DNA from: Actinokineospora diospyrosa
GTDB lineage: Bacteria > Actinomycetota > Actinomycetes > Mycobacteriales > Pseudonocardiaceae
Assembly (NCBI RefSeq): GCF_024171925.1
Contig: NZ_JAMTCO010000009.1
Location: 214,705-278,704, forward strand
Direction: 5' to 3'
Length of the DNA stretch: 64,000 nucleotides
Shown here: in pieces, positions 3,978 through 39,170 of the stretch
How the letters are laid out: the number at the start of each line of letters is the position of its first letter
Numbering within the stretch: the stretch's first letter is position 1
Program-made: the position numbers and the translations under genes
Notes under the pieces: generated by a model
Databases searched by the model: none
What the model saw: only the letters and a program-made list of their open reading frames with translations
What the model was told of the DNA's origin: nothing

Positions 3978-4955
3978 GTGCCCAAGTTGTCCTACCTCAA
4001 GGCCCTCAACCGCGCGCTCGGTGACGAGATGGACCGCGACGAGTCGGTCTTCGTCCTCGGCGAGGACGTCAACTTCGCGCTGACCAACGTCACCGCCGGG
4101 TTCCTCAAGCGCTTCGGCCCGGACCGGGTGGTGGAGGTCCCGCTGACCGAGCAGGGCTTCACCAACTTCGCCACCGGCGCGGCGATGGCCGGGCGCAGGC
4201 CGGTGATCGAGTTCCAGATCCCGTTCCTGCTGCTGCTGGTGTTCGAGCAGATCACCAACCAGGCCAACAAGTTCCTGATGATGAGCGGCGGCCAGCGCAG
4301 CGTCCCGGTCACCTACCTGATGCCCGCGGCGGGGTGGCGGGCCGGGTGGGGCGCGCAACACTCCGACCAGCCCTACAGCATGTTCGCGCACATGGGCGTC
4401 AAGACCGTGCTGCCCGCGACGCCGACCGACGCCTACGGCCTGCTCACGACCGCGATCCGCGACGACGACCCGGTGGTGTTCTTCGGCCCCCTCGCCTCGC
4501 TGAGCGTGCGCGAGATCGTCGACTACGCCGACCTGGCACCGATCCCGCTGGGCAGCGGCCGGGTCCACCGCCCGGGCACCGACGTCACCGTTGTCGCTTT
4601 GGGGCACTTGGTGCACGAGGCGCTCGCGGTGGCCGAGGAGCTGGCCGACGAGGCGTCGGTCGAGGTGTGGGACCCGCGTTCGGTGTACCCGTTCGACTGG
4701 GCCGGGTTGGCCGAGTCGGTGGCCAAGACCGGGCGGCTGGTGGTGTTCGACGACTCGAACCGCTCGTGCGGGATGGGCGCGGAGATCCTCGCGACCGCCG
4801 CGGAGGAGATGCGGCTGGTGGCCCCGCCCAAGCGGGTGACCAGGCCGGACGGCGCGATCGTCGGCGCGGTCCCGGAACTGGACGAGGTGCTGCAGCCGAC
4901 CAGGCCGCAGTTGGCCGAGGCGGTCCGCTCGGTGCTCAAGAGCCCGGGTTGGTGA
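3978..4955 (+). CDS. ThDP-dependent 2-oxoacid dehydrogenase E1, beta subunit
   Basis: This 325-residue protein has the transketolase pyrimidine-binding domain (VFVLGEDV at the start, TEQGFTNFATGAAMAGRRP) and the C-terminal transketolase domain (VTVVALGHLVHEAL, EVWDPRSVYPFDW). It is full length for the family and completes the alpha2beta2 E1 with the gene just upstream. The GTG start at 3978 has a very strong GGAAGGAGG site. The Glu in GEDV near residue 29 is in the place expected for the ThDP-activating Glu region. Substrate choice among pyruvate, branched 2-oxo acids and ketose-derived units is not visible. Confidence 0.88.
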   Translation: MPKLSYLKALNRALGDEMDRDESVFVLGEDVNFALTNVTAGFLKRFGPDRVVEVPLTEQGFTNFATGAAMAGRRPVIEFQIPFLLLLVFEQITNQANKFLMMSGGQRSVPVTYLMPAAGWRAGWGAQHSDQPYSMFAHMGVKTVLPATPTDAYGLLTTAIRDDDPVVFFGPLASLSVREIVDYADLAPIPLGSGRVHRPGTDVTVVALGHLVHEALAVAEELADEASVEVWDPRSVYPFDWAGLAESVAKTGRLVVFDDSNRSCGMGAEILATAAEEMRLVAPPKRVTRPDGAIVGAVPELDEVLQPTRPQLAEAVRSVLKSPGW

Positions 4956-4957
4956 TC

Positions 4958-6358: not shown

Positions 6359-6372
6359 TCGAGATCAAGTGA
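6355..6372 (+). other. Five-codon mini-ORF (MIEIK) coupled to the condensation gene
   Basis: An ATG overlaps the condensation-gene stop (ATGA) and has a strong GGAGG site six bases upstream, exactly like the real gene junctions of this operon. The frame ends after five codons. It may be the stub of a deleted downstream gene or a leader-like minicistron before the terminators. Translation is inferred only from the start context. Confidence 0.35.
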
Positions 6373-6382
6373 ATCGCGCGGT

Positions 6383-6454
6383 AGCGCGGAGACCCTTCCG
6401 CGCTCGCTGAACAAGTTGGCTGCGGGGGTGGGCCGTTGGTGGACCCACCCCCGC
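6383..6454 (+). terminator. Two tandem hairpins between operon segments
   Basis: The first hairpin pairs 6383-6390 with 6397-6404 (8 bp, AGCGCGGA/TCCGCGCT). The second pairs 6422-6432 with 6444-6454 (11 bp perfect, 11-base loop). Neither has a clear U-run, which is common for actinomycete terminators. They separate the carrier-protein assembly genes from the nitrite genes, though partial read-through remains possible. Confidence 0.6.
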
Positions 6455-6458
6455 ACCC

Positions 6459-8300
6459 ATGTCCACCCGGGAAGCACGCATGCACAGGTTTGGTCGAGCC
6501 GTTTGTGTCGTCGGCGCGGGTCCGCGCGGGCTCAGCGTCCTGGAGCGCCTGTGCGCCGGTGCCGAGGGTCCGGTGGTGGTGCACCTGGTCGACCCGTTCG
6601 CCGGGCGCGGTGGGCGGGTGTGGTCGACGAGCCAGCCCGCGTCGCTGCTGATGAACACCATCGCCTGCCAGGTCTCGATGTTCACCGACGTGACCGTCGA
6701 CTGTGCTGGACCTATCCGACCCGGTCCGTCCCTCTATGACTGGGCTGCCGCGGGGTTGGCACCCGCTGTTGTCGCTGCCGAGGCCGCGGCGTTGACTCCG
6801 GACTCTTACCCCACGCGGGCGTTCTATGGTCACTACCTGGACTGGTTCCTCGATCACGTGCGGCAGGCAGCGCCGCCTTCGGTGGAAGTTCGGGTACATC
6901 GTCTTACCGCTGTCGCGCTCGATGACCTCCCCGACGGGCAGTGCGTGACGCTGTCCGACGGCCAGGTTCTTACCGGGCTGTCGGCCGTCGTGTTGGCGCA
7001 AGGCCACGTGGACATGCCTCTAGGGGCTATGGAGTCACGGTTGGCCGGTTTCGCTGACTCACGCGGACTGGGCTACCTCCCGCCGGGCAACCCGTCCGAG
7101 GTGGACCTGTCGGGGATCATGCCCGGCGAGGTCATCGCGGTTCGGGGGATGGGGCTGGCGTTCTTCGACTACCTCGCGCTTCTTACCGGCGATAGGGGAG
7201 GGCGGTTCAAAGAGCGCGCGGACGGGTCGTTGGCCTACGTTCCCTCGGGCCAGGAACCCGTGATTGTCACCGGTTCTCGGCGCGGGCTGCCCTACCACGC
7301 GCGCGGGGAGAACGAGAAGGGCGCGTTCGGGCGCCACGAGCCGGTGTTCCTGACGCTGGACGTGATCGCCGAGCTGCGCTCTCGCGCCGCGGTGTCGTTC
7401 CGCGAGGACATCTGGCCGCTGGTCGCGCGTGAGGTCGAACTCGTCTACTACCGGACCCTGCTGGGCGATGAGTTCGCCAGCCGGTTCATCGCGGGGGAGC
7501 CGGGGCTGGTCGAGTCGTCCGGCGTGCAGCCGTGGGACTGGGGGCTGATCGCGCACCCGGACGGTGGGCGCCGGTTCGGGTCGCCCGCAGAGTTCGACGC
7601 CTGGTTGATAGAGCTGCTGCGGGCCGACGTACCGGGCGGGAACGTGACCGACCCGGTGAAGGCCGCCTTGGATGTTCTCCGGGACATGCGCAACGAGATC
7701 CGCTTGGCGGTAGACCACGGCGGCATCACCGGCACCTCTTACCGCAACGACCTCGACGGTTGGTACACCCCGCTTAATGCGTACCTGTCCATCGGTCCGC
7801 CCGCTCGGCGCGTGGCTGAGTTGGTGGCTCTTATCGAGGCTGAGGTCGTGCGGGTGGTCGGCCCGGGGATGCGGGTGGATCTAGCCGATAGAGGCTTCCT
7901 GGTGAGCTCGCCCCGGGTCGGTGGGTCCGGGGTCCTGTGCACGACGCTGGTCGAGGCGCGGCTACCGGAGGTCGACATCCGGCAGACCACGGACCCGCTT
8001 ATAGCGTCCATGCTCGAACGAGGCGACTGCGTCCCCTACCACATCCCGGATCCTGAAGGGGCGGTCGAGACAGGTGGGCTTGCCGTCACCCCACGGCCCT
8101 ACCGGCTGTTGCGCGCGGACGGCACACCCCACCCCACCCGGTTCGGATACGGTGTCCCTACCGAGTCGGTGCACTGGGTCACCGCGGCGGGCATTCGCCC
8201 TGGGGTGAACTCGGTGATCCTGGCCGACGCGGACGCCATCGCCCGGGCGGCGCTGGCGGTGACCAGCAGCGCGCGGCCCCCGGTCGCGCGACCGGCGTGA
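6459..8300 (+). CDS. CreE-like FAD-dependent L-aspartate N-oxygenase (nitrosuccinate-forming)
   Basis: The 613-residue protein opens with a Rossmann dinucleotide site (VCVVGAGPRGLSVLERL, about residues 16-32). Later it has the NAD(P)H-oxidase-like elements LAQGHVD and AVRGMGLAFFDYLALL. Length, domain type and tight pairing with a fumarase-family lyase match CreE, FzmM and related enzymes, which oxidise the aspartate amino group stepwise to nitrosuccinate using FAD, NADPH and oxygen. The identification rests on this pairing and on the FAD/NAD(P)-binding family. An ATG at 6480 with GGGAAG upstream is an alternative start, because the 6459 ATG lies against a terminator stem. Confidence 0.75.
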   Translation: MSTREARMHRFGRAVCVVGAGPRGLSVLERLCAGAEGPVVVHLVDPFAGRGGRVWSTSQPASLLMNTIACQVSMFTDVTVDCAGPIRPGPSLYDWAAAGLAPAVVAAEAAALTPDSYPTRAFYGHYLDWFLDHVRQAAPPSVEVRVHRLTAVALDDLPDGQCVTLSDGQVLTGLSAVVLAQGHVDMPLGAMESRLAGFADSRGLGYLPPGNPSEVDLSGIMPGEVIAVRGMGLAFFDYLALLTGDRGGRFKERADGSLAYVPSGQEPVIVTGSRRGLPYHARGENEKGAFGRHEPVFLTLDVIAELRSRAAVSFREDIWPLVAREVELVYYRTLLGDEFASRFIAGEPGLVESSGVQPWDWGLIAHPDGGRRFGSPAEFDAWLIELLRADVPGGNVTDPVKAALDVLRDMRNEIRLAVDHGGITGTSYRNDLDGWYTPLNAYLSIGPPARRVAELVALIEAEVVRVVGPGMRVDLADRGFLVSSPRVGGSGVLCTTLVEARLPEVDIRQTTDPLIASMLERGDCVPYHIPDPEGAVETGGLAVTPRPYRLLRADGTPHPTRFGYGVPTESVHWVTAAGIRPGVNSVILADADAIARAALAVTSSARPPVARPA

Positions 8301-8308
8301 GGAGCCGC

Positions 8309-9634
8309 GTGACCGGTACCGACAGTGGCCTGCTCGCCCCGGTGTGGGCGGGCGCCGAGGCGGCCGACCTGGTGACCGACGAGGCGTGGGTGGCCGCGAT
8401 GGTCGAGGTCGAGGTGGCCCTGGCCCGCGCGCAGGCCAAGCTGGGGGTCATCCCGGCCGCCGCCGCGGCGGCCATCGCCGACACCGTCGCCGACATCGAC
8501 GTGGTCGACCTGGCCGTGCGCTCACGCGGTGGCGCCAACCCCATCGTGGCGTTTGTCACCGCCTTCACCGCCTGCGTGCCCGAAGACGCCCGCGAGTACG
8601 TCCACCGCGGCAGCACCAGCCAGGACATCCTCGACACCGCCGCCATGCTCATCACCCGCCGGGTCTTCGACGTGGTGTCGCGCGACCTGCTGCGAGTTGC
8701 CGCTGCCTTGGCGAGGTTGGCCGAGGAACACCGGGACTCGGTGATGGCTGGGCGCACTCTTACCCAGCACGCGGTGCCGGTGACTTTCGGTCTTAAAGCC
8801 GCCGGGTGGCTGACCTCGGTGCTGGACGGGCTTACCCGTGTGCGTGGAGTGGTTCTGCCCGCGCAGCTCGGTGGCGCTGCCGGGACCCTGGCGTCCTATG
8901 TGGAGTACGCGGGGGATCCTTCGCACGGCCCCTTGCTGTCGGCGGAGTTTTCAGCCGTGTTGGGCTTGCCGGAAGCCGTAGTGCCCTGGCACGCCCTTCG
9001 CGCCCCTTACGTCGACATCGGTTCTGCGGCCTCTATTGTCACCGGTGCGTTGGGGAAGTTCGCGCTAGACGTCCAAGGCATGTCCCGCACCGAGGTGGCC
9101 GAGGTAGTCGAGCCCTCCGCCGAAGGCCGCGGCGTTTCGTCCGCGATGCCGCAAAAGCGCAACCCGGTCCTGGCCACCCTCATCATGGCCGCCGCCCGCC
9201 AGGTCCCCCTCTATGCGACAGTCCTGGCCCAGTCGATGCTCGCCGAAGACGAACGAGCCCCCGGCGCCTGGCACGCCGAATGGCAGCCCCTGCGTGAGTT
9301 GCTGCGCTCCCTCGGCGGGGCTGCCGCCACCGCCGCCGAGCTAGCCGAAGGCCTGGAGGTCTTCCCCGACCGCCTCCGCGCGAACCTATCGCTGACCGGC
9401 GGCACCATCGTCTCCGAGCGCTTGAACGTCGCTCTAGCGCCTGTCTTGGGCAAGGTAGAGGCCAAGAAGCTCCTAGCCAGCCTCTCCCGCTCCGAAAACT
9501 TCGCCGACGCTCTGCGAGCCGCTCCCGAGCTCGCTTCCGTGGACGTGAACGCGTTGTTGGATCCCGCTGAGTACCTGGGCTCCACCGGCGCCCTCATCGA
9601 CCGCGCCCTCGCCCACTACCGCAACCTCCCATGA
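8309..9634 (+). CDS. CreD-like nitrosuccinate lyase (fumarase/adenylosuccinate lyase superfamily)
   Basis: The 441-residue enzyme carries the superfamily signature SSAMPQKRNP (about residue 278) with the catalytic Ser loop, plus the GSTSQDI substrate region and the TLTQHAVPVTFG histidine region. General annotation would read 3-carboxymuconate cycloisomerase-like lyase. Next to a CreE-like monooxygenase, the specific role is elimination of nitrous acid from nitrosuccinate, leaving fumarate. The GTG at 8309 has GAGGAG at the right distance and lies just past the previous stop; a GTG at 8297 overlaps that stop. The nitrite would feed N-N bond or diazo formation by a cluster enzyme not seen in this window. 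Confidence 0.78.
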   Translation: MTGTDSGLLAPVWAGAEAADLVTDEAWVAAMVEVEVALARAQAKLGVIPAAAAAAIADTVADIDVVDLAVRSRGGANPIVAFVTAFTACVPEDAREYVHRGSTSQDILDTAAMLITRRVFDVVSRDLLRVAAALARLAEEHRDSVMAGRTLTQHAVPVTFGLKAAGWLTSVLDGLTRVRGVVLPAQLGGAAGTLASYVEYAGDPSHGPLLSAEFSAVLGLPEAVVPWHALRAPYVDIGSAASIVTGALGKFALDVQGMSRTEVAEVVEPSAEGRGVSSAMPQKRNPVLATLIMAAARQVPLYATVLAQSMLAEDERAPGAWHAEWQPLRELLRSLGGAAATAAELAEGLEVFPDRLRANLSLTGGTIVSERLNVALAPVLGKVEAKKLLASLSRSENFADALRAAPELASVDVNALLDPAEYLGSTGALIDRALAHYRNLP

Positions 9635-28949: not shown

Positions 28950-29729
28950 GTGCCATCGCCCCTGCGTGCCGTTTCCGCCACTCGGTATGTGACCCCGTTG
29001 CGGGAAGGCGGGTCGTTGCCCGGGCTGGTGGAGGCGGACGACCTCGGGATGTACGTGCTCAAGTTCCGCGGCGCGGGCCAGGGCCTCAAGGCGTTGGTGG
29101 CCGAGGTGGTGGTGGGGGAGTTGGCGCGGGCGTTGGGCCTACCTGTGCCGGAGATCGTGTTGGTCGACCTGGACCCGGAACTCGGTAGAGCGGAACCGGA
29201 CGAAGAGGTCCAAGAGCTTCTTCGTGCAAGTGGCGGCCGTAACCTCGGGTTGGACTACCTGCCCGGCTCGTTCGATTTCACCCCGCTAGTCCGCGATCCA
29301 GGGCCGGAGTTGGCCGCGCAGGTGCTGTGGCTGGACGCCCTGGTCCTCAACGTGGACCGCAGTTGGCGCAACCCGAACCTCTTGCTCTGGCACCGCGATG
29401 TGTGGCTCATCGACCACGGCGCCTCTTTGTACTTCCACCACCGGTTCGCGCAGGGCTGGCAGCCCGCGCAGACCTACCGGTTCGACGCCTCCGACCACGT
29501 GATGCTGCCGGTGGCAGGCTCCGTCACCGAGGTTGACGTGGCGCTCACGCCCAAGGTGCTCCCGGTGCTCGATGGCGTGCTCGACCTGGTGCCGGACGAG
29601 TGGCTGGACGACGTGTTCGGCACGCCCGACCAGGCCAGAGCGGCCTACCGGGCGTACTTCGAAGCGCGACTGGCCGACGCGCCGCGCTGGGTCGGGGAGT
29701 TGGAGGCGGCTCGTGTCGCACGTGTTTGA
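28950..29729 (+). CDS. HipA-like kinase-fold protein
   Basis: The protein has 259 residues from the GTG at 28950; a GTG at 28896 that overlaps the sigma gene is another option. It has HipA-type catalytic elements: LNVDRSWRNPNLL, which corresponds to the catalytic loop NxDRHxxN, and LIDHGASL, which corresponds to the metal-binding DxG. ALVAEVVVGELARALGLPVPE is the helix that follows the lysine strand YVLKF. It is shorter than classic HipA and has no HipB partner; instead it is coupled to a DUF3037 gene. This pair recurs in bacteria. A Ser/Thr kinase role is inferred. Confidence 0.78.
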   Translation: MPSPLRAVSATRYVTPLREGGSLPGLVEADDLGMYVLKFRGAGQGLKALVAEVVVGELARALGLPVPEIVLVDLDPELGRAEPDEEVQELLRASGGRNLGLDYLPGSFDFTPLVRDPGPELAAQVLWLDALVLNVDRSWRNPNLLLWHRDVWLIDHGASLYFHHRFAQGWQPAQTYRFDASDHVMLPVAGSVTEVDVALTPKVLPVLDGVLDLVPDEWLDDVFGTPDQARAAYRAYFEARLADAPRWVGELEAARVARV

Positions 29730-30102
29730 GTACGCGCTGCTGAGGGCCGTACCCCGCCAGGACCGCGGCGAGATCATGAACGTCGGCGTCCTGCTCTATT
29801 GCGCCAGCCTGGACTACCTGCGCTGCCGCACCCATGTCGACCCGGATCGGCTGCGCGCCCTAGACCCGGATCTCGACGTCGATACCCTCGCCTCCGCGTT
29901 GACGCTGTTGTGCGGCGCTTGCGATGGCACCGACCTTCGAGCACCGGTTACGGGAATCTCCCTAGGGCAGCGCTTCCGCTGGCTGACAGCGCCACGCAGC
30001 ACCCTTGTGCAGACATCACCCACCCACCCCGGCCTCACCAACGACCCGGACGCGGACCTAGAGCGACTGTTCCAGCGTCTTGTCCTACCGGTAGGCGCCT
30101 AA
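29713..30102 (+). CDS. DUF3037 protein, partner of the HipA-like gene
   Basis: The 129-residue protein matches DUF3037: YALLRAVPRQDRGEIMNVGVLLYC near the start and RFRWLTAPRSTLVQTSPTHPG later. It starts inside the HipA-like gene (17-base overlap), which signals coupled expression and often a physical complex. The function is unknown; analogy with HipA modules makes an antitoxin or adaptor role possible but unproven. Confidence 0.85.
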   Translation: MSHVFEYALLRAVPRQDRGEIMNVGVLLYCASLDYLRCRTHVDPDRLRALDPDLDVDTLASALTLLCGACDGTDLRAPVTGISLGQRFRWLTAPRSTLVQTSPTHPGLTNDPDADLERLFQRLVLPVGA

Positions 30103-30106
30103 GCGC

Positions 30107-31324
30107 TTAGGCGCGCCCGAACGGGAGAGTCGCGTCGATGAAGCCGCGCTCGTCCCCGCGCGGCCACTCCGACCGCGGCGTGCCCCTCGTGGCCATCGCC
30201 CACAGCACGTCCTCCGCGCACGAGGCGTCCACATCGTCATCGGTGAACACGATCAGCCTGCCGAACGGGTGCCGGTCGAACGCCCGACGCGCCACGTCCG
30301 CGAGCCGGTGATCGTCGGCGTGCGACCGCTTGCGCACCGAGACCACCAAGAGCAGCATCCCGCCACCCGCCGGGCTGTGGTGGACATCGGTGACCAGTTC
30401 GTCGTCGACCGCCCGCGCCACCGACAGCGCACCGGCCAGGCCCAAGACGACCGACTGCTCCCGCCCCTCTTCCAGCATGCTTTGGTAGAGCGGCTCCGGT
30501 CGCGCGGTCACCCCAGTCACCGTGAGCACCGGGCGCCCGTCCGACATGGTCTCGTCGAGGTAGCCCTCCAGAACAATCTCGGAGTCCGCCAGCACGGTGG
30601 TCTTAGCGCCGACAGTTAGCGCTACCGGCGCACCAGCCAAGGCACCGGCAAGAGCCAACTTGTCCACCGGCCACAGCTGAGACGTCAACGCGGACGCCAC
30701 CGTCGCCGCGGGAGGCGCGCCGATGTTCACCGACACCGGTAGCCGCTCCCCGGTAGCCAGTGCCTCGGCACGTAGGTTCGCTAGCGCCTCATCCGGACCC
30801 ATGCACACGGCCAACCGAGACTGGTCTAACACCAGCATCCGATGCGCCGACAACACGACCGCATCGCCACGGTTGGCATAGGCAACGCCCAGGGTGAGAT
30901 AGCGCTCGGCATCCCGGCGAGTCAGCATCGGCAGCCTGTACAAATCCACATGGGGCCACCGGTCCCGGGCCCGCATCACATGCACAGGCGGGATCGCCGC
31001 GTCGATCAGCGTGTTCACCGTCTCTTGGTTCGCACGCCGGGGGAGCCCAGGTAGGAGTGCCCTAACACGGTTGATGTCGCCGTAAACCCCGAGCAGCAGC
31101 GGGATGCCGGTATCCGGCACCTGGTACTGCACCACCATCTCCGAGCGCGGCGCCGACGGTAGACCGGTGAACCGTTCGACGAAATCCGCTGCCACCGCGT
31201 CCCGCCTGAACAAACGACTCATAGGGCCGTGCTCGCCCGGCGGGATCCGACGCAACGCCGCGCGCAGCGACAACGCCGTGGGCTCCTCCACCATGGGGGA
31301 GCGCGGAGTCGGGATGGCGGTCAT
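30107..31324 (-). CDS. UbiD-family decarboxylase, short form
   Basis: The 405-residue protein matches the UbiD family: LLLGVYGDINRV near residue 78, ERYLTLGVAYANRGD, VDKLALAGALAGAP, SEIVLEGYLDE and VFTDDDVDASCAEDVLWA, ending with GFIDATLPFG. The family performs reversible decarboxylation of aromatic or unsaturated acids with prenylated FMN. The region after EIVLEG is shortened where other members have the GPFGEP segment, and the protein is about 80 residues under the usual length. No UbiX (prenyl-FMN synthase) is in the window. It overlaps the trpC-like stop (ATGA) and is the last gene of the operon, so a decarboxylation late in the pathway is likely. Confidence 0.8.
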   Translation of the reverse strand: MTAIPTPRSPMVEEPTALSLRAALRRIPPGEHGPMSRLFRRDAVAADFVERFTGLPSAPRSEMVVQYQVPDTGIPLLLGVYGDINRVRALLPGLPRRANQETVNTLIDAAIPPVHVMRARDRWPHVDLYRLPMLTRRDAERYLTLGVAYANRGDAVVLSAHRMLVLDQSRLAVCMGPDEALANLRAEALATGERLPVSVNIGAPPAATVASALTSQLWPVDKLALAGALAGAPVALTVGAKTTVLADSEIVLEGYLDETMSDGRPVLTVTGVTARPEPLYQSMLEEGREQSVVLGLAGALSVARAVDDELVTDVHHSPAGGGMLLLVVSVRKRSHADDHRLADVARRAFDRHPFGRLIVFTDDDVDASCAEDVLWAMATRGTPRSEWPRGDERGFIDATLPFGRA

Positions 31325-32007
31325 CTAGGCACTCCAGCGCGATAGGACAACCAGGCTGCCGCGTTGGGTGCCCGCAGCAGAGCCGTACCGACCAGCACCG
31401 CGGTGTATCCGGCGTCCACCAGTCTCCTGACCTGTTCCGGGCGCTCGATGCCGCTGGCGCTCACGGGGGCGCGACAACCCGCCGCCCGCAGCACCGGGAG
31501 CAGCCGCTCGCTGCGGCCCAGGTCGGCCGGACCGCGTTCCCGCAGCCGGATGTCCTTGTTGTTCACCGCGAGCACGCACTCGGCCGCGTGCGGCACCGCG
31601 GCGATCTCGGCCTCGGACACCACCTCGACGAACGGCGTCAGCCCCAACAGCAGCGCCTTGTCGACCAGCGACGCCAGCACCCGCCCCGGCAGCAGGGCGG
31701 CGGTCAGCAACACCGCGGCCGCCCCGACCTCCTTGGCGTGGATCAGTTGCGATTCCCTGGTCAGGAAGTCCTTCTGCAGCACAGGCAGTTCGCAGCGCGC
31801 GGTGATGTCGGCGAGCAGCCGCAGATCCCCACCGAACCACCTGCCCGTCACCACCGACAAGCACCCGGCCCCGGCGCTTTGGTACGCCGCCGCGATCGCC
31901 ACCGGCGACCGGTTGCCCAGCAGGGACAGCCCGTCAGCACCCTGCATCTTGACCTCGGGGATCACCGGGATGGACGCTCCGAGCACCGCCTCGATGAACC
32001 CACTCAC
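31321..32007 (-). CDS. TrpC-like indole-3-glycerol-phosphate synthase homologue with altered active site
   Basis: The 228-residue TIM barrel, from the GTG at 32007 that overlaps the trpF-like stop, is shorter than the roughly 260 residues of real TrpC. Kept residues by position are Glu18 and Lys20 (PEVK), Lys79 (LQKDF), Glu128 (FVEVVSE) and Asn149 (AVNNKD). Altered positions are the AEYKRKSPS loop, replaced by a longer unrelated loop (MQGADGLSLLGNRSP), the LTE segment, now VTG, and the essential Glu of the AESGI loop, now Ala184 in SASGI. TrpC makes indole glycerol phosphate by decarboxylative ring closure. The changes suggest a different anthranilate-like substrate or outcome. The function is inferred. 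Confidence 0.78.
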   Translation of the reverse strand: MSGFIEAVLGASIPVIPEVKMQGADGLSLLGNRSPVAIAAAYQSAGAGCLSVVTGRWFGGDLRLLADITARCELPVLQKDFLTRESQLIHAKEVGAAAVLLTAALLPGRVLASLVDKALLLGLTPFVEVVSEAEIAAVPHAAECVLAVNNKDIRLRERGPADLGRSERLLPVLRAAGCRAPVSASGIERPEQVRRLVDAGYTAVLVGTALLRAPNAAAWLSYRAGVPR

Positions 32008-32642
32008 AGCCGCCACCCCGCCAGCAGCGCGCTTACCCTGCCGGGGTCGATCTGCCCATCGCCGCCTCTACAACCGGTATCCACATCCACTCCCGCGAAC
32101 CGGGGATGCCGCCGGACGCTTGCGAACTCGGCAGCGTTGTTAGGGGTAACTCCGCCCGACAGCAGAAACGGTCGGTTCAAGTAGTTGGCGATCTCGAGCA
32201 CTACTGCTTCCGCGAGAGGCCGCCCGGTGCTGCCTAGCGCCCCGTCCGGTCCCACACAGTCGAGTACGAACATGTCCACGCCCGCCCGCTCATAAGCGCC
32301 CACGAGTGATCCCTCCACGCAAACCCCGTCCCTGACGTGCAGCGCTTTCACGACCGTCAGGCCTGCCGCCTTGAGCACCCTGACCACCCTCGGTGGTTGA
32401 AACCCGTGGAGTTGGACCCACCGGACCCCGGCTGTCTTCGCGAGCCAGGCAATGTCGTCGGCGAAGGTGACCATCACCGGCTCAGGGCCACCACCGGAGG
32501 CCAACTCCGCGAAGGTCGACGGCGACAGGTTCGCGTGGCCGCCCCGCACACCACACCACAAGCCCACCAAGTCCACGCCGCCCAATGCGGCGAGGTCCGT
32601 GGCGCGTGTAGCGCCGCAGACCTTCACCATCGGCTCAGACAT
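32004..32642 (-). CDS. TrpF-like phosphoribosylanthranilate isomerase homologue
   Basis: The 212-residue barrel keeps the catalytic Cys (VKVCGATRATD, residue 8) and Asp (MFVLDCVG). It has WVQLHGFQPP in the place of the QLHG motif, LLSGGVTPNN for the phosphate-binding LaGGLxxxN, and GVDVDTGCRGGDG where TrpF has GVDVSSGVE. The family isomerises a phosphoribosyl amine by Amadori rearrangement. A separate TrpF is unusual in actinobacteria, which normally use the dual HisA/TrpF enzyme PriA, so its presence argues for a dedicated pathway. The ATG lies 8 bases inside the trpB-like gene. Confidence 0.82.
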   Translation of the reverse strand: MSEPMVKVCGATRATDLAALGGVDLVGLWCGVRGGHANLSPSTFAELASGGGPEPVMVTFADDIAWLAKTAGVRWVQLHGFQPPRVVRVLKAAGLTVVKALHVRDGVCVEGSLVGAYERAGVDMFVLDCVGPDGALGSTGRPLAEAVVLEIANYLNRPFLLSGGVTPNNAAEFASVRRHPRFAGVDVDTGCRGGDGQIDPGRVSALLAGWRL

Positions 32643-33990
32643 CCGGCAACCCCGCCAGGGCCGCATACATCCCGCCGACATCGAACTCCTCGTCCTGCAA
32701 CGTCCCCGAGAAGTACTCCCCGTAGGCGGACAGGTCGAAGTGGCCGTGCCCGGACAGACCGAAGAGGACCGTTCGGCCGACCCCCTCCTCCTTGCTGCGC
32801 AACGCCTCCCGAATGGCGGTCTCAACCGCGTGACACGACTCAGGTGCAGGCACGATCCCCTCTGCTCGAGCGAACCGCACACCCGCCGCGAAACACGCTG
32901 ATTGCGCTACCGCCACGGGCTCGATCAACCCCTGTGCGACGGCCTCACTCACCAGGGGTGCCATGCCGTGGTAGCGCAATCCGCCAGCGTGCAACGGCGG
33001 TGGGATGAACCCATGCCCGAGGGTGTGCATTCGCAGCAGCGGCGTGAACCCGGCAGTGTCACCGAAGTCGTAGGCCAACGTTCCCCGCGTCATCGACGGA
33101 CACGACGCAGGCTCGGCCGCTATCACGCGGACAGACCTACCGCCCCGCAGTTGCTCACCCAAGAACGGGAACGACAACCCGCCCAAGTTGCTGCCGCCGC
33201 CCGCGCACCCGATCACCACATCCGGGTAGTCGTCGGCCAACGCGAACTGGGCGATGGCCTCTTGGCCGATCACGGTCTGGTGCAACAACACGTGGTTAAG
33301 CACACTGCCGCAGGCGTAGTTCGTCGACGGGTCCTGCGCTGCGATCTCCACGGCCTCCGAAGAGGCGATACCCAGGCTGCCGGGAGAGTCCGGGTCTCGC
33401 GCCAAGATGGACCTACCGGTCTCGGTCTCGCTGCTCGGACTTGGCACACAACGAGCGCCGTAGGTCTGCATCAACAGTTGGCGGTAAGGCTTCTGGTCGA
33501 AGCTCACCCGCACCATGTAGACGCTGACGTCTAGGCCGAACAGCGCACCCGCCAGTGCCAGCGACGATCCCCACTGCCCGGCCCCCGTCTCCGTGGCGAG
33601 CTTGGTGATCCCTGCCTGCTTGTTGTAGTAGGCCTGCGCGATGGCGGTGTTCGGCTTGTGGCTGCCGGTAGGACTAACGCCTTCGTACTTGTAGTAGATC
33701 CGCGCGGGCGTGTCCAAGGCACGTTCCAACCCGCGCGCCCGCACCAACGGCGAGGGACGCCATCGCGCATAGATCCGCCGGACCGGCTCCGGGATCTCCA
33801 CCTCCCGGTCCAGTGTCAACTCCTGCCTGGCCAGCTCGGCGGGCACGATCGGCAGCAGGTCGTCAACGGTGATCGCCCGACCGGTCGCCGGGTGCCGGGG
33901 CGCGGCGAGGTCGGGCAGGTCGGCGGCGAGGTTGTACCAAGCGCGCGGGATGTCCTGCGCGCTGAGCGGGAACTGCACACGCTCGTTCAT
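32635..33990 (-). CDS. TrpB2-type PLP-dependent tryptophan synthase beta homologue
   Basis: The 451-residue enzyme is the stand-alone TrpB2 form. The PLP lysine lies in GSHKPNTA (residue about 117), the catalytic Glu is in TETGAGQWGS and the phosphate loop is GCAGGGSNLGG. TrpB2 proteins join indole and serine without a TrpA partner, and no trpA is found here. In this operon it probably couples serine, or another amino acid able to form aminoacrylate, to the heteroaromatic product of the trpDFC-like steps. The ATG overlaps the stop of a 45-codon ORF and has GGAG upstream. Confidence 0.88.
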   Translation of the reverse strand: MNERVQFPLSAQDIPRAWYNLAADLPDLAAPRHPATGRAITVDDLLPIVPAELARQELTLDREVEIPEPVRRIYARWRPSPLVRARGLERALDTPARIYYKYEGVSPTGSHKPNTAIAQAYYNKQAGITKLATETGAGQWGSSLALAGALFGLDVSVYMVRVSFDQKPYRQLLMQTYGARCVPSPSSETETGRSILARDPDSPGSLGIASSEAVEIAAQDPSTNYACGSVLNHVLLHQTVIGQEAIAQFALADDYPDVVIGCAGGGSNLGGLSFPFLGEQLRGGRSVRVIAAEPASCPSMTRGTLAYDFGDTAGFTPLLRMHTLGHGFIPPPLHAGGLRYHGMAPLVSEAVAQGLIEPVAVAQSACFAAGVRFARAEGIVPAPESCHAVETAIREALRSKEEGVGRTVLFGLSGHGHFDLSAYGEYFSGTLQDEEFDVGGMYAALAGLPDV

Positions 33991-34124
33991 CGGCGGGCTC
34001 CAAGGTGTCGGTCGCTTCCGGTCAGCTTGCGCGCCGACAAGCCCGAGTACAGGCCCTCGACCAGGTCATCTCCGGCCGGCCGGGGATCGCTGTGGGTGGC
34101 TGTCGCGGCCGCTCGCTCACCCAT
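33987..34124 (-). CDS. 45-residue peptide gene between trpD-like and trpB-like genes
   Basis: This short frame begins with ATG at 34124, eight bases inside the trpD-like stop, and ends with TGA at 33987-33989 overlapping the trpB-like ATG. It fills the only gap in an operon in which almost all genes overlap. The peptide is MGERAAATATHSDPRPAG followed by DDLVEGLYSGLSARKLTG and a basic tail (SDRHLGARR). It has an acidic-to-helical middle and no Cys or Trp, so it is neither a trp leader nor a lanthipeptide-like precursor. It might be a small subunit, a carrier-like helper or a substrate peptide. I do not recognise a family. Gene reality is inferred from the coupling on both sides. Confidence 0.55.
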   Translation of the reverse strand: MGERAAATATHSDPRPAGDDLVEGLYSGLSARKLTGSDRHLGARR

Positions 34125-35106
34125 GGCGACCCATCCGGGTCAACAACGCCACCGCCGCGCCACCGCGCACGGCCTCGACCGCGTCCGCCTCGGCCCGCGT
34201 CCAGTCCGACCGCGCTCCGGACAGGACGGCCAACGCCGCCGCGTTCAGGCACACCGTCCGCACCGCCGTGGCGGGCGCGGTGCCCGACAGCAGCGCGCGC
34301 AGATCCGCCACCGCGTCCACACCGGGTGCCAAGTCGAGCACCGTGCCCGGTCCGGACGGCTCAAGCCACCAACCCCGCCCGGTCGCTCCCTCGTGCACCC
34401 AGTTGGCGGCGAAGGACACCAGCTCGTCGACCCCGGCGTCGTTGTGGCACAGCCAGGTCCGCTGATCCGACCGCCGAGCCGCCAGCACGCGCAACGCGGG
34501 CAGGTCTTCCGGGCGCGACACCCCGGTCAGCTGCGCCGCCACCGACACCTGGGCCAGGAACGGCCCCACGGTGTTGACGAACCGTCCCACTGTCCGCAAG
34601 TCCAAAGGCACGATCTCGGCGGCTAATAGCGAGATCTCCACCGGATACACGAAGACCCCGGCGAACCCCACCCCGAACCGGTCCACCATGTCCATCAACT
34701 CGGTATGCGAACCGGCGACAGGTATGCCTGCCGCGCCAAGCACGTCCAAAGAGCCCGCCCGGCTCGAGTACCCGCGAGACCCTGTCTTGACTACCCGCAC
34801 TCCCATCGTCGCAGCCACTACCGCTGCCGCGGTGGAGATGTTCACCGTGAGAGGCCCACCGCCGGTGCCAACGATGTTCACCGCCCCCGGGTAAGCGACC
34901 GTCTCACCGCCGCCACGCTCCTGCGCGGCATCGAACAACGCGGTCAGCGACCCGGGGTCCGGCATGGCCGTCGACAGTGACGCCAGCACTGCCGCCGCCT
35001 CACCCCTGGCCAGCCGCCCCCGCGTCAGCCGATCCAGGAAACACCCCCACTCCGCCACCCCCACCGGGTCGACCCGCCTGGTCAACCCGGCAAGCAGCCC
35101 CGACAC
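34117..35106 (-). CDS. TrpD-like anthranilate phosphoribosyltransferase homologue
   Basis: The 329-residue protein has the family fold and the PRPP-binding GTGG (residues 80-83), but GTGGDG is changed to GTGGGP. NISTAAAVVAA and KTGSRGYSSRAGSLDVL match NISTxAA and KHGNRxxSSxxGSADVL, with His replaced by Thr. The Mg-binding DE pair is kept (AGVDELV). The anthranilate-site GPLLNPA motif is replaced by GPFLAQV. PRPP chemistry therefore looks intact while the acceptor pocket differs, so the amine acceptor is probably not plain anthranilate. The GTG at 35106 lies one base past the carrier-protein stop. Confidence 0.8.
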   Translation of the reverse strand: MSGLLAGLTRRVDPVGVAEWGCFLDRLTRGRLARGEAAAVLASLSTAMPDPGSLTALFDAAQERGGGETVAYPGAVNIVGTGGGPLTVNISTAAAVVAATMGVRVVKTGSRGYSSRAGSLDVLGAAGIPVAGSHTELMDMVDRFGVGFAGVFVYPVEISLLAAEIVPLDLRTVGRFVNTVGPFLAQVSVAAQLTGVSRPEDLPALRVLAARRSDQRTWLCHNDAGVDELVSFAANWVHEGATGRGWWLEPSGPGTVLDLAPGVDAVADLRALLSGTAPATAVRTVCLNAAALAVLSGARSDWTRAEADAVEAVRGGAAVALLTRMGRHG

Positions 35107-35107
35107 C

Positions 35108-35356
35108 TCAACCCGCCCGCACCGGCGCCGCGGCGAGTCCCGCCACCGCGCGCACCGACCGCAGGTCAGCCGGGTCCACGTCGTCCGCGGGCACGTCGAA
35201 GGTGTCCTGCAGCCAGGCCAACACGCGCAGCACACCGAGGCTGTCGAGCACCCCGGCCGCCACTAGGTCCAGATCCGGGTCCAACTCATCGGCGCGCACA
35301 TCGGGTAAGAACTCCTCGACGACGAACCGCGTAACGGCGCCCAGCACTTCGCTCAC
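35108..35356 (-). CDS. Acyl carrier protein heading the trp-like operon
   Basis: The 82-residue carrier has the phosphopantetheine Ser in GVLDSLGVL (about residue 39) and typical acidic loops (VRADELDPDLDL, VPADDVDPADL). It is the first gene of the minus-strand operon, divergent from a TetR regulator. The ATG has AGGT-type sequence in the leader. A carrier protein is not part of tryptophan synthesis. Its placement suggests that an acyl group, perhaps the amino acid analogue of anthranilate or its precursor, is handled as a thioester before or after the trp-like steps. Confidence 0.85.
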   Translation of the reverse strand: MSEVLGAVTRFVVEEFLPDVRADELDPDLDLVAAGVLDSLGVLRVLAWLQDTFDVPADDVDPADLRSVRAVAGLAAAPVRAG

Positions 35357-35756
35357 GGAAACCTCTCCCCCTCACCGCGCGGACCCCGGGCACGGTCTCC
35401 ACAGTGGACATCCCGGTAGCCTTACCACCACCGGGTTGCCTAAGTTAAGGCCGGTAGGGGGGTCGGACATGGGTGTCCGCTACCCACATTCCGGGCCGCG
35501 AGCGCCCGTGTTCGCGCAGGCCACGGCGCGGTACCCCCATCAGGGGGTCCTCAAGCTGGGGTGGAGCGCCGAAAGGGCGTGGTTTCCACCCATGGGTATG
35601 CTGGGGTGCTCACCCCAAGGCTCCTAAGAGGACAAATCGGGTGGGGTTCCCGTAGGTCAACCGGGGTGGCCTACCCCTATCGGGGTGCCACCCCGTGGTA
35701 GGCCCGCTACGATGCGGGGGACAACCCCGCTCACCACCGCGCGACGGAGGACCCCA
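35357..35756. promoter_or_regulatory. Divergent control region between the carrier protein and TetR genes
   Basis: The 400-base gap has several short G/C palindromes and no convincing gene; short frames here are scattered and lack ribosome sites. The strongest is at 35662-35695: outer arms 35662-35670 and 35687-35695 (perfect 9 bp) and inner ACCCC/GGGGT arms at 35673-35677 and 35682-35686. It lies 62 bases upstream of the TetR start and could be a TetR operator for both transcripts. A TAAGTTAAGG segment near 35440 is the only A/T-rich stretch, a possible promoter site. Confidence 0.5.
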
Positions 35757-36347
35757 GTGGCGTCCAAGCCAGCCCCGCAGCCCACCCCGGCCGAGGAACC
35801 CGCGCCCGAGAAGGGGATGCGCGCGCACGCCAAGCGCAACCACGAGAAGCTGCGCGTCGCGGCCAACATCGTCGTCGCCGAACAGGGCGCCGACGCCTCG
35901 CTCGAGGAGATCTCCCGCCGCGCGGGCCTCGGCTCGGCCACCCTCTACCGGCACTACCCGACCCGGCTGATCCTGCTCGACATCGTCTTCCACGACCGCG
36001 TCGAGGCGCTCAACGCCGAGACCGCGCCGCTGCTGACCGCTGCTGATCCTGGAGCCGCCCTGGTCACCTGGGTGCGCACGTTGGCCGAGCACTTCACGGC
36101 GAACCTGGGTCTTGCGAAGTTCCTCATGCTCGCTGAGGGGGCTAAGGAGCTGACCAGCGCGCATGCGCAGGTTCGGGAAACGGGTAAGAAGGTGCTCGGG
36201 CGTGCGCAGAAGGCCAAGGCTGCTACGGCTGATGCCAGCATTGCTGACCTGCTTGACCTGGTGAACTCGATCGTGCTGGCGAATGAGCGGGATGCGGCGC
36301 GGGTGCGGCGGCTGCTTGATCTCGCTGTGGGGGGTATTCGGCGCTGA
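35757..36347 (+). CDS. TetR/AcrR-family transcriptional regulator
   Basis: The 196-residue regulator has the N-terminal helix-turn-helix (ASLEEISRRAGLGSATLYRHYPTR, residues about 46-69) after a basic, proline-rich head. The GTG at 35757 has a GGAGG site seven bases upstream, better than the longer frame from 35685 that would begin inside the palindrome. The C-terminal ligand domain (about residues 80-196) is of the common TetR_C_33-like kind. It is divergent from the carrier/trp-like operon and is its most likely repressor. Confidence 0.9.
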   Translation: MASKPAPQPTPAEEPAPEKGMRAHAKRNHEKLRVAANIVVAEQGADASLEEISRRAGLGSATLYRHYPTRLILLDIVFHDRVEALNAETAPLLTAADPGAALVTWVRTLAEHFTANLGLAKFLMLAEGAKELTSAHAQVRETGKKVLGRAQKAKAATADASIADLLDLVNSIVLANERDAARVRRLLDLAVGGIRR

Positions 36348-36375
36348 TACGGGGGGCTCGTCTGCGGGCGGCCTG

Positions 36376-36742
36376 CCTCGTCGCCTGGCGGCGACCTTGG
36401 GGCCGGATCACTGCCTCGTCGCCTGGCGGCGAGCTCGGCGACCCGGATCGGACGGCCTCGTTGCCTAGCGGCAACCTCGGCGTCCGATCCGCGGCAATGC
36501 GGAGAGCTCGATGGGGCGAACTTGTTTTGCGTGGGGCCCCTACGACACCCGTGGCAGAACCGCAAAGCAGGGGCCCAAAAGCAGGCCCTGCCGCGTGAAC
36601 AACGCTACGGGTGCCGTCCCCCCACGCAAAACAAGTCCGCCCCATCGAGCCGGCTTGGCACCAGCGGGTCCGACTGTTCAGGCGCTGAGCAGGCGGGCTG
36701 AGGCGGACCTGACGGGAACCGGTCTGGCACCAGCGGCTTCCG
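36376..36742. repeat. Composite structured repeat, copy A
   Basis: Three parts lie in order. First, three 16-base hairpins at 36380-36395, 36418-36433 and 36460-36475 (GTCGCC-TGGC-GGCGAC type, the third GTTGCC-TAGC-GGCAAC), spaced about 40 bases. Second, a 145-bp imperfect palindrome, 36506-36650, whose 31-base arms (36506-36536 and 36620-36650) start with GCTCGATGGGG and contain CTTGTTTTGC/GCAAAACAAG, with a nested ACACCCGT/ACGGGT pair and a GCAGGG/CCCTGC hairpin. Third, two direct repeats starting GGCACCAGCG (36657 and 36726). The same three-part order recurs at 59954-60420. No protein is seen. Confidence 0.8.
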
Positions 36743-36764
36743 CCGTGGTCGACGAAGCGGCACG

Positions 36765-36947
36765 GTTGCCACCTCCAACCCCGCCTCAACCCCCGCGGGC
36801 TGGACCGGCGGCTCCCTCTCCACCCCCAAGGGCGCCATCTGCGCCGTCGCCAAATCAGGCACAGCCGTCGTCGTGAGCACCAACCAAGAACAAACCATCA
36901 AAGCCCGTCGCATCACCGAAGCCGTCATCACCAACCTCGGCCTCTAG
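36765..36947 (+). pseudogene. 3' remnant of a secreted/lipoprotein-type gene
   Basis: A protein-like frame of 60 residues ends with TAG at 36945. It reads VATSNPASTPAGWTGG, then GAICAVAKSGTAVVVSTNQE, and ends in an amphipathic helix (ARRITEAVITNLGL). It has protein-like composition but no start codon or ribosome site, and its 5' side runs directly into the repeat at 36742. It is probably the end of a lost gene cut by the repeat or by a deletion. The family is not recognised with confidence. Confidence 0.45.
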
Positions 36948-37221
36948 CCCCCGTCGCCCTCCCCGCGCGCGCACGCGACCGAGTGGCGCCCAGCCCCCAC
37001 CCTCTCCGGGGGGCGTCCCCGATGCCAATCTACCGGGTGTCAACCCTGCGGAGGGGGCTGGCGGAAATCTGTGGATGGCCGGGTGGGTTGTGGATAACTC
37101 GCGACCTGGGGAAACGGCAGCGGAGGGCTGAGCTTCACCTGGTTGAGGCGTTGATCGTGGCCGACCTGGCCGCTCCTGGAGCGAAGTGGTGCCATTCCGA
37201 GCTGGCGGGTTCGGACGGGGG
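36948..37221. other. Intergenic stretch with DnaA-box-like sites
   Basis: No convincing gene is seen. TGTGGATGG at 37070-37078 and TGTGGATAA at 37089-37097 resemble DnaA boxes; the second is the exact reverse complement of TTATCCACA. There is no dnaA or dnaN nearby, so an origin is unlikely. Confidence 0.35.
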
Positions 37222-38697
37222 CTAGATCACGGGGGTTGTTTCGGTGACTGGGCCGTGGCGTTGGAGGTCGGCCCAGGCGCGGGCTAGGCGGCGGACCAGT
37301 TCGGTGATGACGTCGTGGGGGAAGGTGAATGGCACTCGGATGTGGTTGTCGTGGGCGCCGGTGGGGTCGGTTGCTGATCCTGGTACCGCTTCTACGCCGT
37401 GGCGGAGTGCGACTTGGGCGAAGATCTGCGCGCTGGTGTCCGGCAGCGCCACCCACAGAGCCGAGCCGCCGTCTGGGGTTTGCCAGCGCCAGGTGGGGAG
37501 CTGTTCGGCCAGCAGGGTTTGCATGTGGTCCAGCCGCGATCGCATTGTTGCGGCGCGGATGGCGGTGATCTCGTCCAGTCTGGGCAGCAGTCGGGCGGTC
37601 AACGCCTGGTCGAGGACTGGGCTGCCGAGGTCCGCGCGGACTTTGTAGCGGGCGAGGCGTTCCACGATGGCGGCTGGGCCCCGGACCCAGCCGATGCGCA
37701 GCCCGCCCCATACCGACTTCGCGACTGAGCCGACGCTGAGGATCTCGGCATTTCCCCTGGCGAACGCTCCTATAGGGGGCGGTGTGGCGCCGGTGCGGCT
37801 GTGGAACCCGCTATAGGCGTTGTCCTCCAGCACCGGCACGTTGAACCGGGCGGCCAGTTCGGCTACCCGTCTTCGCCGGATCGTGGACATCATCCGGCCG
37901 GTCGGGTTGTGGAACGTGGGCATCAGGTAGGCCAAGACGGGGCGTTCCTCGGCGAACACGGCCGCCAAACGGTCCGGGAGGATGCCTTCATCATCGAGCG
38001 GTACGCCTACCAGGCGTGCACCGGCCGCCCGGAAGACGTCCAGACAACCCGGCCAGCTCGGCGACTCCACCACGACAGTGCTACCTGGCCGCAGGTACAT
38101 CTGCGCGACCAAGCCGATGACCTGCTGAGCGCCCGTGGTGATGAGTACTTGGTCGGCATCGGTCGGTAGGCCTACCCCGGTGTAGTGAGAGGCGACGGCT
38201 TCGCGCAGCGGGGGATAGCCCCTGGGGTGGTAGCCGACATCCGCCATCAGGTCGTTGAGCTCGCCGTCGGCCAGTTCGCGATAGACCTCGGCGAGCTCTG
38301 GCGCGGCGGGCTCGATTGCCATCGCCAGGGAGATGATCGGCCCGGGGCCGTCCACCAACCGCTGGAAGATGGAGGTGGCTCGCCCACCCGGGATGCGCCC
38401 ATGTGAGCCGTTGACCCTAGGTCGCGCGCTGACCCGGGTACCGCTACCGCGCACGCTGTCGACAAGACCCTTGCCGCGCAGTTCGTCATAGGCAGCGACA
38501 ACGGTGGCGCGGCTGACCGTGAGCAGTTTGGCCAAGTCGCGCTCAGAGGGGAGGCGTTCCCCCGCGGGCAGATCGCCCACCTCGATGCTTTTCGCTACCG
38601 CGCCCGCGAGTTTCCGGTAGAGCGGACCGCCCGCGGTGGTCCAATCACCGAGCAACTCCACCAGGCTGTTCGCGTCGGAGAGGCGGTCCATGATCAT
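37222..38697 (-). CDS. MocR-family regulator (GntR helix-turn-helix plus aminotransferase-like domain)
   Basis: The 491-residue protein has a GntR winged helix (GERLPSERDLAKLLTVSRAT, about residues 43-62) joined to a class I aminotransferase-fold domain. PLP-site landmarks are ITTGAQQVIGL, YLMPTFHNPTGRMMS, VLEDNAYSGF and the Lys in LSVGSVAKSVWGGLRIGWVR. MocR proteins use PLP or a PLP-amino acid adduct to control vitamin B6, GABA or other amine genes. The ATG at 38697 lacks a clear ribosome site, so the transcript may be leaderless. It is divergent from the proline-rich gene across about 470 bases. Confidence 0.9.
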   Translation of the reverse strand: MIMDRLSDANSLVELLGDWTTAGGPLYRKLAGAVAKSIEVGDLPAGERLPSERDLAKLLTVSRATVVAAYDELRGKGLVDSVRGSGTRVSARPRVNGSHGRIPGGRATSIFQRLVDGPGPIISLAMAIEPAAPELAEVYRELADGELNDLMADVGYHPRGYPPLREAVASHYTGVGLPTDADQVLITTGAQQVIGLVAQMYLRPGSTVVVESPSWPGCLDVFRAAGARLVGVPLDDEGILPDRLAAVFAEERPVLAYLMPTFHNPTGRMMSTIRRRRVAELAARFNVPVLEDNAYSGFHSRTGATPPPIGAFARGNAEILSVGSVAKSVWGGLRIGWVRGPAAIVERLARYKVRADLGSPVLDQALTARLLPRLDEITAIRAATMRSRLDHMQTLLAEQLPTWRWQTPDGGSALWVALPDTSAQIFAQVALRHGVEAVPGSATDPTGAHDNHIRVPFTFPHDVITELVRRLARAWADLQRHGPVTETTPVI

Positions 38698-39170
38698 TAA
38701 GGTACCGGTCCGGGCCACTGGGAAACCGGTCCACTTCCGCCGTGATTGGACTGGACTGGGCCCGCGCATGCCGGTATGCGGCCCGAAAGGGGCCTCGACG
38801 GCCATCGCGGCGGAGTTCGGACCGGTGCCCGCGCCGTCGACCCGGGGTGCGGGAAATGCGGTATTGGTCACATTGTCGTCGTTTAGCGCGACCTGGGAAT
38901 CAGCGTTCGGGAATCCGCTCGACCGGCTCGGTGAACGCCATTCAAGGGGATCGTCCCGGTTATCCGAATATTTCTTCGACACCTCGCCCGCGGCCGGGGC
39001 GCCACCGCGCACTTCGCCCGCTCAGGTCCCTGGGCTGCGGGAACCGGCGGCGGTGGGGTCGGTTCCGGTAGGTCCGAGAATCGCCATTGCCCGGTCGGGC
39101 GCCGACAATTCCGACGGTCGAACCGACCCCCACCTGGCGACCGGGTGGCCGGGCTGACAAGATCGACGCC
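38698..39170. other. Divergent intergenic region, MocR to proline-rich gene
   Basis: About 470 bases hold no convincing gene; the frames present are unsupported. A relatively A/T-rich stretch around 38870-38980 is the likely promoter zone for the MocR gene or the plus-strand gene. No clear inverted operator was found. Confidence 0.4.

Follow-up and report, generated by a model that had tools for sequence, protein, structure and literature searches.

The window, a 64,000-nt stretch of the Actinokineospora diospyrosa genome (8.1 Mb in 29 contigs), contains six open genes on the minus strand (35356-30107) encoding an acyl carrier protein (ACP) followed by TrpD-, TrpB2-, TrpF-, TrpC- and UbiD-like proteins (Table 1). 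Three of the five gene junctions overlap, the ACP and TrpD genes are 1 base apart, and a gap of 126 bases separates TrpD from TrpB2. An earlier note, made from the sequence, had described six coupled genes of these families on one strand; Pfam and NCBIfam models agree with it, and neither trpE/G nor trpA lies within the operon, as that note had also stated. TrpB2 passes both of its cut-offs (690 bits against 366 for PRK12391; 604 against 519 for TIGR01415) and is 35-36% identical to the genome's two other TrpB-like genes, on contigs C14 and C1. The remaining Trp-like proteins miss the NCBIfam equivalog cut-offs for trpD (118 of 199 bits), trpF (55 of 215) and trpC (134 of 260). Primary trpC, trpB and trpA reside elsewhere in the genome (C14:220030-222844), as do the primary trpD (C3:540232-541218, 361 bits) and priA (C14:206892-207608, 397 bits). 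Actinomycetota regularly lack trpF (PMC13055916).

Table 1. Features of the operon, its upstream region and the second locus (window positions, except for contig C21)
Feature	Position	Strand	Remarks
ACP/PCP-like (acyl or peptidyl) carrier protein	35108..35356	-	PP-binding 31.7 bits; DSL serine kept (GVLDSLGVL)
TrpD-like phosphoribosyltransferase	34117..35106	-	Glycos_transf_3 113 bits; DE pair kept; GTGGD and anthranilate motifs altered
TrpB2, stand-alone tryptophan-synthase beta type	32635..33990	-	PRK12391 690 bits
TrpF-like isomerase	32004..32642	-	PRAI 48 bits; catalytic Cys and Asp kept
TrpC/IGPS-like (indole-3-glycerol phosphate synthase) ring-closing enzyme	31321..32016	-	IGPS 133 bits; N-terminus shortened; E51, K53, K110, E159 and N180 kept, R182 to K, E210 to A
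UbiD-like protein	30107..31324	-	UbiD 95 bits; two loops missing, one with the catalytic Glu (LPEFLGYDG in relatives) and one C-terminal
Intergenic region with short inverted repeats	35357..35684	.	for example, 35662-35670 paired with 35687-35695, which extends into the TetR gene
Divergent TetR-family regulator	35685..36347	+	same position in G398, G401 and G403
C21 locus (L054)	C21:89006-82014	-	ligase, ACP, EctC-like, acyl-CoA-dehydrogenase-like (ACAD), transglutaminase-like, TrpB2, EamA exporter, arylmalonate-decarboxylase-family (AMDase-like) gene

Phylogenetic trees divide the TrpC, TrpD and TrpF sequences into canonical enzymes and a second group, here called module rows, which includes the window copies. 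One branch with an SH-like approximate likelihood ratio (SH-aLRT) support of 100 parts the two groups in each tree (35 module vs 31 canonical rows for TrpC, 35 vs 31 for TrpD, and 34 vs 33 for TrpF). The trees were built by a quick method and carry SH-aLRT supports without bootstrap; the canonical rows comprise 30 drawn at random from 46 (TrpC) or 61 (TrpD), with the primary enzyme of this genome added, whereas for TrpF the full 33 were used. L063, which comes from the same genome as L035, was omitted, and stops within aligned pieces were taken as X. The genome's own primary TrpC and TrpD sit in the canonical groups. The module groups include Streptomyces spiroverticillatus JCM 4609 (L059) and Nocardiopsis alkaliphila (L068), and the window proteins are 51% (TrpD), 44% (TrpF) and 56% (TrpC) identical to those of the former.

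The module rows retain catalytic residues and differ at substrate-binding positions. In TrpC, Glu51, Lys53, Lys110 and Glu159 (Sulfolobus numbering) are kept in 35/35 module rows and Asn180 in 33; Lys53, Lys110, Glu159 and Asn180 of IGPS are reported to be essential (PMC7681013). Arg182, which contacts the substrate carboxylate, is kept in none of the 35 module rows (Lys in 33, Gly in one, Ala in one) and in all 46 canonical rows. Glu210 is Ala in 35/35 module rows (Ala187 of the window protein) vs Glu in 46/46 canonical rows, and the Glu/Asp of the LTE motif is Gly in every module row (window Gly58). The TrpD module rows all have the DE pair and have lost the His and Asn of KHGNR, the His of HPAM and the Asn of NPA; the KHGNR His, present in 61/61 canonical rows, is Thr in 27 and Ser in eight. 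The aligned module TrpD rows are also one residue shorter at GTGGD. TrpF keeps its Cys and Asp in 34/34 module rows, and TrpA from the fuller loci described below keeps Glu49 and Asp60 in 30/30; we take these positions to be functional residues. The altered TrpD and TrpC sites that the earlier note had pointed out (its TrpC Ala184 is Ala187 in the present numbering) are real and family-wide, and they are not usual in primary enzymes of this genome, the own TrpC and TrpD of which retain the customary residues. TrpD, TrpF and TrpC are clades apart from the primary enzymes, with altered substrate sites and retained catalytic residues.

TrpC also differs at its N-terminus. From the nearest plausible starts, 16-24 residues precede Glu51 in the module proteins vs 50 in the genome's own primary TrpC; four of five canonical rows inspected have 53-58, and the fifth (L102) has 11, probably through a cut alignment. 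The alignment with the AlphaFold2 (AF2) model begins at residue 39 of Pseudomonas aeruginosa IGPS, and PDB rows mostly begin at 27-39, with the top row (6bma) at 21. In P. aeruginosa IGPS the N-terminal helix helps to close the active site, and this closing helix seems to be absent from module TrpC. Its apparent loss would fit a carrier-bound substrate. The P. aeruginosa enzyme can close the ring without the carboxylate, with a 41,000-fold loss of efficiency.

By tree position and gene content, the window TrpD, TrpF and TrpC can be assigned to a known type of gene module, that for the pyrrolopyrrole of kosinostatin, which was reportedly described by Ma et al. in 2013. Published work lists the species of L059 and of L068 among those with kosinostatin clusters, and it is through species and gene content that the link to kosinostatin runs. 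In PMC7918784, N. alkaliphila is an almost complete and A. bangkokensis a possible carrier, and Table 5 assigns to kstB the loading of nicotinic acid and its conversion to a pyrrole, and to kstC the conversion of that pyrrole, together with phosphoribosyl pyrophosphate (PRPP), to the pyrrolopyrrole. Disruption of ksnC3, a putative phosphoribosylanthranilate-isomerase gene, abolished kosinostatin and isoquinocycline B (PMC13099267), and the precursors are given as nicotinic acid and ribose in PMC5321127. The window operon shares with the kosinostatin/quinocycline module (kstB/kstC, ksnC3; Micromonospora sp. TP-A0468, Streptomyces) the TrpD, TrpF and TrpC groups and the stand-alone carrier protein beside TrpD. 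Among the related loci, L064 has a SnoaL/DnrD cyclase, and L058, L059 and L064 have tandem ketosynthases (KS).

A TrpF-like search of 397 genomes of the order gave matches in 19, seven of which (the own genome included) show at least 46% identity and the other 12 at most 36%. A scan with nine TrpD-like rows found at least 80 loci; among the matches listed, 19 have 45-51% identity, followed by a gap to 36% or less. Against a phylum sample, the TrpD alignment passes E 1e-40 in 45 of 396 genomes, with 449 bits for the own genome and at most 164 for the other 44, which were taken as canonical trpD (up to five candidates were scored per genome). Four Streptomyces plasmid loci were added to the set, these being the ones examined among 29 plasmid records with a TrpC-like match. 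Flanks of roughly 10 kb were read to the left and right of the 19 TrpD loci. An ACP gene and an EctC-like (ectoine-synthase-like) gene occur in 19/19, and a ligase (at least 47% identity), TrpA-, ACAD-, TrpF- and TrpC-like genes in 17/19 each. These counts define a module core of ligase-ACP-TrpD-TrpA-EctC-ACAD-TrpF-TrpC. An 8-amino-7-oxononanoate synthase-like (AONS) gene beside KS and MaoC accompanies it in eight, a transglutaminase-like gene in six and UbiD in three; TrpB2 was found in none of the 19.

Several module loci lie in other settings. The module stands beside AONS, KS and MaoC genes, in some cases with 3-ketoacyl-ACP synthase III (KAS III) and short-chain dehydrogenase/reductase (SDR) genes, at L028, L030, L031, L033, L061, L065 and L066, and further such loci are L067, L069, L070, L073, L074, L150 and L151; they occur on three Streptomyces plasmids and in Actinoplanes, Arthrobacter and others. 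We know of no product for these clusters. A contig of the proteobacterium Azospirillum griseum (L071) has the module with UbiD and a KS, perhaps by transfer between phyla. Only ACP-TrpD-EctC of the module is present in the stretches read from Streptomyces albogriseolus JCM 4616 (L062) and Streptomyces sp. SW4 (L072).

Within Actinokineospora, TrpD-like matches at E 1e-20 occur in 8 of 16 genomes, and a search for the same gene order, as the earlier note had proposed, was productive. Full TrpB2-bearing operons are present in G192, G397 and G402, in the order ligase-ACP-TrpD-TrpA-ACAD-transglutaminase-TrpB2-TrpF-TrpC-UbiD, with an EctC-like gene in the latter two and none in G192. A shortened operon, which differs from that of G192 by the absence of ligase, TrpA, ACAD and transglutaminase (four genes in all) and which has common flanks (TetR and MocR; DUF3037 and HipA-like) is found in the window, G398 and G401; in G398 the TrpD and TrpB2 genes overlap, unlike in the window. 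Counting G403, which lacks TrpD and TrpF, TrpB2 is linked to an operon of this type in seven genomes of the genus. A ketosynthase query had no match in the window or in the three full operons, each read over 19 kb, so that the operons differ from kosinostatin biosynthesis proper, with its type II polyketide synthase (PKS). Module copies of AONS type occur additionally in G397 and G402; the G014 stretch has KAS III, SDR and MaoC without AONS, and G399 is of tandem-KS type. What is new is the context: a TrpB2- and UbiD-bearing, ketosynthase-free operon of a known module type. In the literature, searched largely outside subscription journals, we found no report of a TrpB2-linked or PKS-free module. 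Neither the kosinostatin module nor the second locus described next was named in the earlier note.

Relatives of the ligase, EctC-like, ACAD and transglutaminase genes, which the window operon lacks and the kosinostatin module has, lie on contig C21 of the same genome, next to a TrpB2 that is 61% identical to the window TrpB2 (Table 1). This gene set occurs in 8 of 16 Actinokineospora genomes, including all four with a shortened or further shortened operon (4/8 with C21 vs 0/8 without; Fisher p 0.077, within one clade). Against ectoine synthase 5ono, the EctC-like protein gives a match of E 1.2e-23. Enzymes of that kind form a cyclic amidine by ring closure and kosinostatin contains a bicyclic one, a chemistry that the EctC-like protein would suit. 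All 10 aligned ligase rows have Asp at what we take to be the amino-binding position, together with an Asp-Ser pair at positions 330/331, the pocket positions being mapped by hand on the LgrA alignment with a numbering that we assume to apply. Transglutaminase-like matches were found in 27 genomes; 17 at 45% identity or less were left out, and seven stretches were read beyond those in the set. Five of these (G367, G185, G338, G290 and G196) have a like gene set without TrpB2 or TrpD/F/C/A, and in G264 and G047 transglutaminase and UbiD lie about 25-40 kb from their module. In Pseudonocardiales, the stretches read at L206, L207, L208, L209 and L212 have ligase-ACP-EctC-ACAD-transglutaminase-AMDase-like genes without TrpD/F/C/A or TrpB2.

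We give about an even chance to the window operon being a shortened, ketosynthase-free kosinostatin-type module, in which TrpD, TrpF and TrpC would build a carrier-bound pyrrole and TrpB2 would add serine to yield a tryptophan analogue. An amino- or nicotinate-derived acid would be loaded on the carrier protein and converted to an enamine or amidine thioester. The likely agents of this in the present genome are the C21 ligase, ACP, ectoine-synthase-like protein and acyl-CoA-dehydrogenase-like oxidase. The TrpD-like protein would then add PRPP to the bound substrate, the TrpF-like protein would carry out the Amadori rearrangement, the TrpC-like protein would close the pyrrole ring on the carrier, and TrpB2 would join the ring to serine. 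From gene content and residue changes we infer the tethering at the TrpD/F/C steps, the transfer between the window and C21 loci, the TrpB2 step with its substrate and product, and which TrpA, if any, would remove glycerol phosphate. Beta-alanine, leading to a pyrrole-3-carbonyl, and simple alpha-amino acids, leading to a pyrrole-2-carbonyl, were considered and stay on as candidate substrates. Proline was suggested because the ligase and the ACAD are related to prolyl enzymes; the G192 ACAD scores best against 4irn and against models of RedW and PigA, though under the NCBIfam cut-off in every case. For the ring-closing step it was rejected because closure onto its five-membered-ring enamine would presumably share three atoms, and because the ligase pocket is unlike the proline code that we assume for the RedW/PigA/AnaB-type route. 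To our knowledge, the prolyl-carrier-protein pyrrole route has no TrpD/F/C/A.

A more specific version, which we hold as possible but doubtful, is that Actinokineospora uses the double-ring chemistry of kosinostatin free of polyketide to make a free tryptophan isostere (a basic amidine pyrrole or pyrrolopyrrole in place of indole, plus serine), with the pathway split over two unlinked loci in the clade of the window genome and the C21 half also acting alone to give a simpler, exported cyclic-amidine amino acid. Whatever the product, tryptophan-type ring building emerges as a portable module, which accompanies a type II PKS in kosinostatin, AONS/KS genes in a number of Streptomyces and other loci, and TrpB2 in the window. 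A version linked to TrpB2 and free of polyketide would offer few-step access to a new tryptophan analogue and an uncomplicated setting in which to work out the pyrrolopyrrole chemistry. In the shortened TrpC the N-terminal region is gone and the Arg that contacts the carboxylate is replaced, which would make this enzyme a test case from nature for closing an indole-type ring when no free carboxylate is present.

Several observations weigh against the carrier-bound pathway proposed above. Module-type TrpA, present in the three full operons, is missing from the own genome, which has only 32% and 27% matches, and this leaves the removal of glycerol phosphate unexplained. The Asp at the amino-binding position of the ligases points to an amino acid and misfits plain nicotinate. 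Because it falls within one clade, the pairing of C21 with the shortened operon is not independent, and the C21 set also occurs in G400, G132, G403 and G404, which have no TrpD-like match; C21 therefore has a function and product of its own. In a TrpB2 tree of 17 rows, four shortened-operon rows form one clade and eight C21 rows another (100/100 each), yet the operon-type rows taken together do not make up a single clade (two changes, weak branches). Finally, G403:C19 (L171) retains only UbiD-TrpC-TrpB2 between the same flanks, with ACP, TrpD and TrpF gone.

This last locus also favors the view, to us rather unlikely, that the shortened operon is a decaying remnant that lost the ligase, TrpA, ACAD and transglutaminase genes between shared DUF3037/HipA-like flanks and then the UbiD active site, with the rest on its way out. 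The state of the UbiD-like protein counts in its favor. In all three shortened-operon proteins (window, L146 and L147) the LPEFLGYDG loop is absent, and so are some 20 residues close to the C-terminus; six relatives (L032, L148, L149, L058, L064 and L071) have both. The loop Glu aligns with Glu289 of AroY, the counterpart of Glu282 in Fdc1, and replacing Glu289 by Ala abolishes AroY activity (PMC5656893); enzymes of the UbiD family share an E(D)-R-E network (PMC8988006), and this triad is incomplete in the window protein. At 193 positions common to three distant relatives, the window protein departs at 62 and that of G192 at 29. The closest known enzymes are the UbiD decarboxylases AroY, HudA (pyrrole-2-carboxylate) and AnInD (indole-3-carboxylate); the G192 protein matches AroY (5ny5, E 3.7e-47). 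The window protein is probably not an active decarboxylase, the catalytic-Glu loop being missing although the gene is conserved, and the decarboxylation proposed in the earlier note is unlikely in this genome.

Other changes in the operon can be read in the same direction. The window proteins depart from positions invariant in the others at 3 of 16 in ACP (the most of 29 rows), 3 of 44 in TrpD and 2 of 33 in TrpF, in each case more than most rows, and the G401 TrpD is the sole module row with Pro for the Arg of KHGNR. However, TrpC departs at 0 of 43 and the window TrpD, TrpF and TrpC keep their catalytic residues. There are no stop codons in the six genes across the three shortened-operon species, for which dN/dS (nonsynonymous to synonymous rate ratio) is 0.21-0.39 for ACP, 0.20-0.30 for TrpD, 0.08 for TrpB2, 0.15-0.20 for TrpF, 0.16-0.17 for TrpC and 0.20-0.34 for UbiD, vs 0.34-0.78 in two full-operon pairs, each gene above its shortened-operon value. 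The estimates are pairwise, by the simple Nei-Gojobori method at differing divergences, and are indicative only; together with the lack of stops, they suggest that the shortened operon is maintained by purifying selection. No remnants of ligase, TrpA, ACAD, EctC or transglutaminase were detected in window 29001-39000 (best E 0.008).

The reading of the earlier note, taken strictly, appears improbable: ribosylation, rearrangement and ring closure would act on a free anthranilate-like amino acid, followed by coupling to serine and decarboxylation, with no carrier-bound chemistry. The order and chemistry of TrpD-TrpF-TrpC-TrpB2 suit it and the operon itself has no ligase, but the TrpD motifs KHGNR, HPAM and NPA and the TrpC residue Arg182 are altered family-wide, ligase, ACP and ACAD recur in 17/19 scanned relatives and all three full operons, and the UbiD step lacks its catalytic Glu. 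Its core, a trp-type route parallel to primary metabolism with a carrier protein, holds in the distinct trees and changed sites. None of the outcomes that the note had listed as refuting it was seen: TrpD, TrpF and TrpC, the three proteins placed by tree, fall outside the primary groups, other trpC, trpB and trpD genes exist in the genome, and its own primary TrpC and TrpD have the customary residues. That the operon is a spare tryptophan supply is very hard to credit: homology speaks for it, but it was rejected on the trees, and the absence of trpE/G/A, the primary genes elsewhere and the scores under the trp cut-offs agree with this. With the primary pathway (TrpD, PriA/TrpF, TrpC, TrpA/TrpB) the operon shares folds and catalytic residues; it differs in tree groups, acceptor sites, carrier protein and the short TrpC N-terminus.

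The inverted repeats upstream of the operon (Table 1) could, at a guess, be an operator. A distant second TrpF-like gene (G000:C1:448961-449500, L038; 30-35% identity) lies near an adenylation-type gene on C1. The window also contains a second specialised cluster (526-9634, plus strand) with a phosphopantetheinyl-transferase-like protein, a ligase-like protein of the amino acid-carrier-protein type (278 bits, cut-off 357), an E1 dehydrogenase alpha/beta pair, a condensation domain, a NAD_binding_9 FAD-NAD(P)-binding protein and a protein resembling nitrosuccinate lyase (548 bits, cut-off 650). It may encode a nitrite-forming (diazo/N-N bond) pathway.

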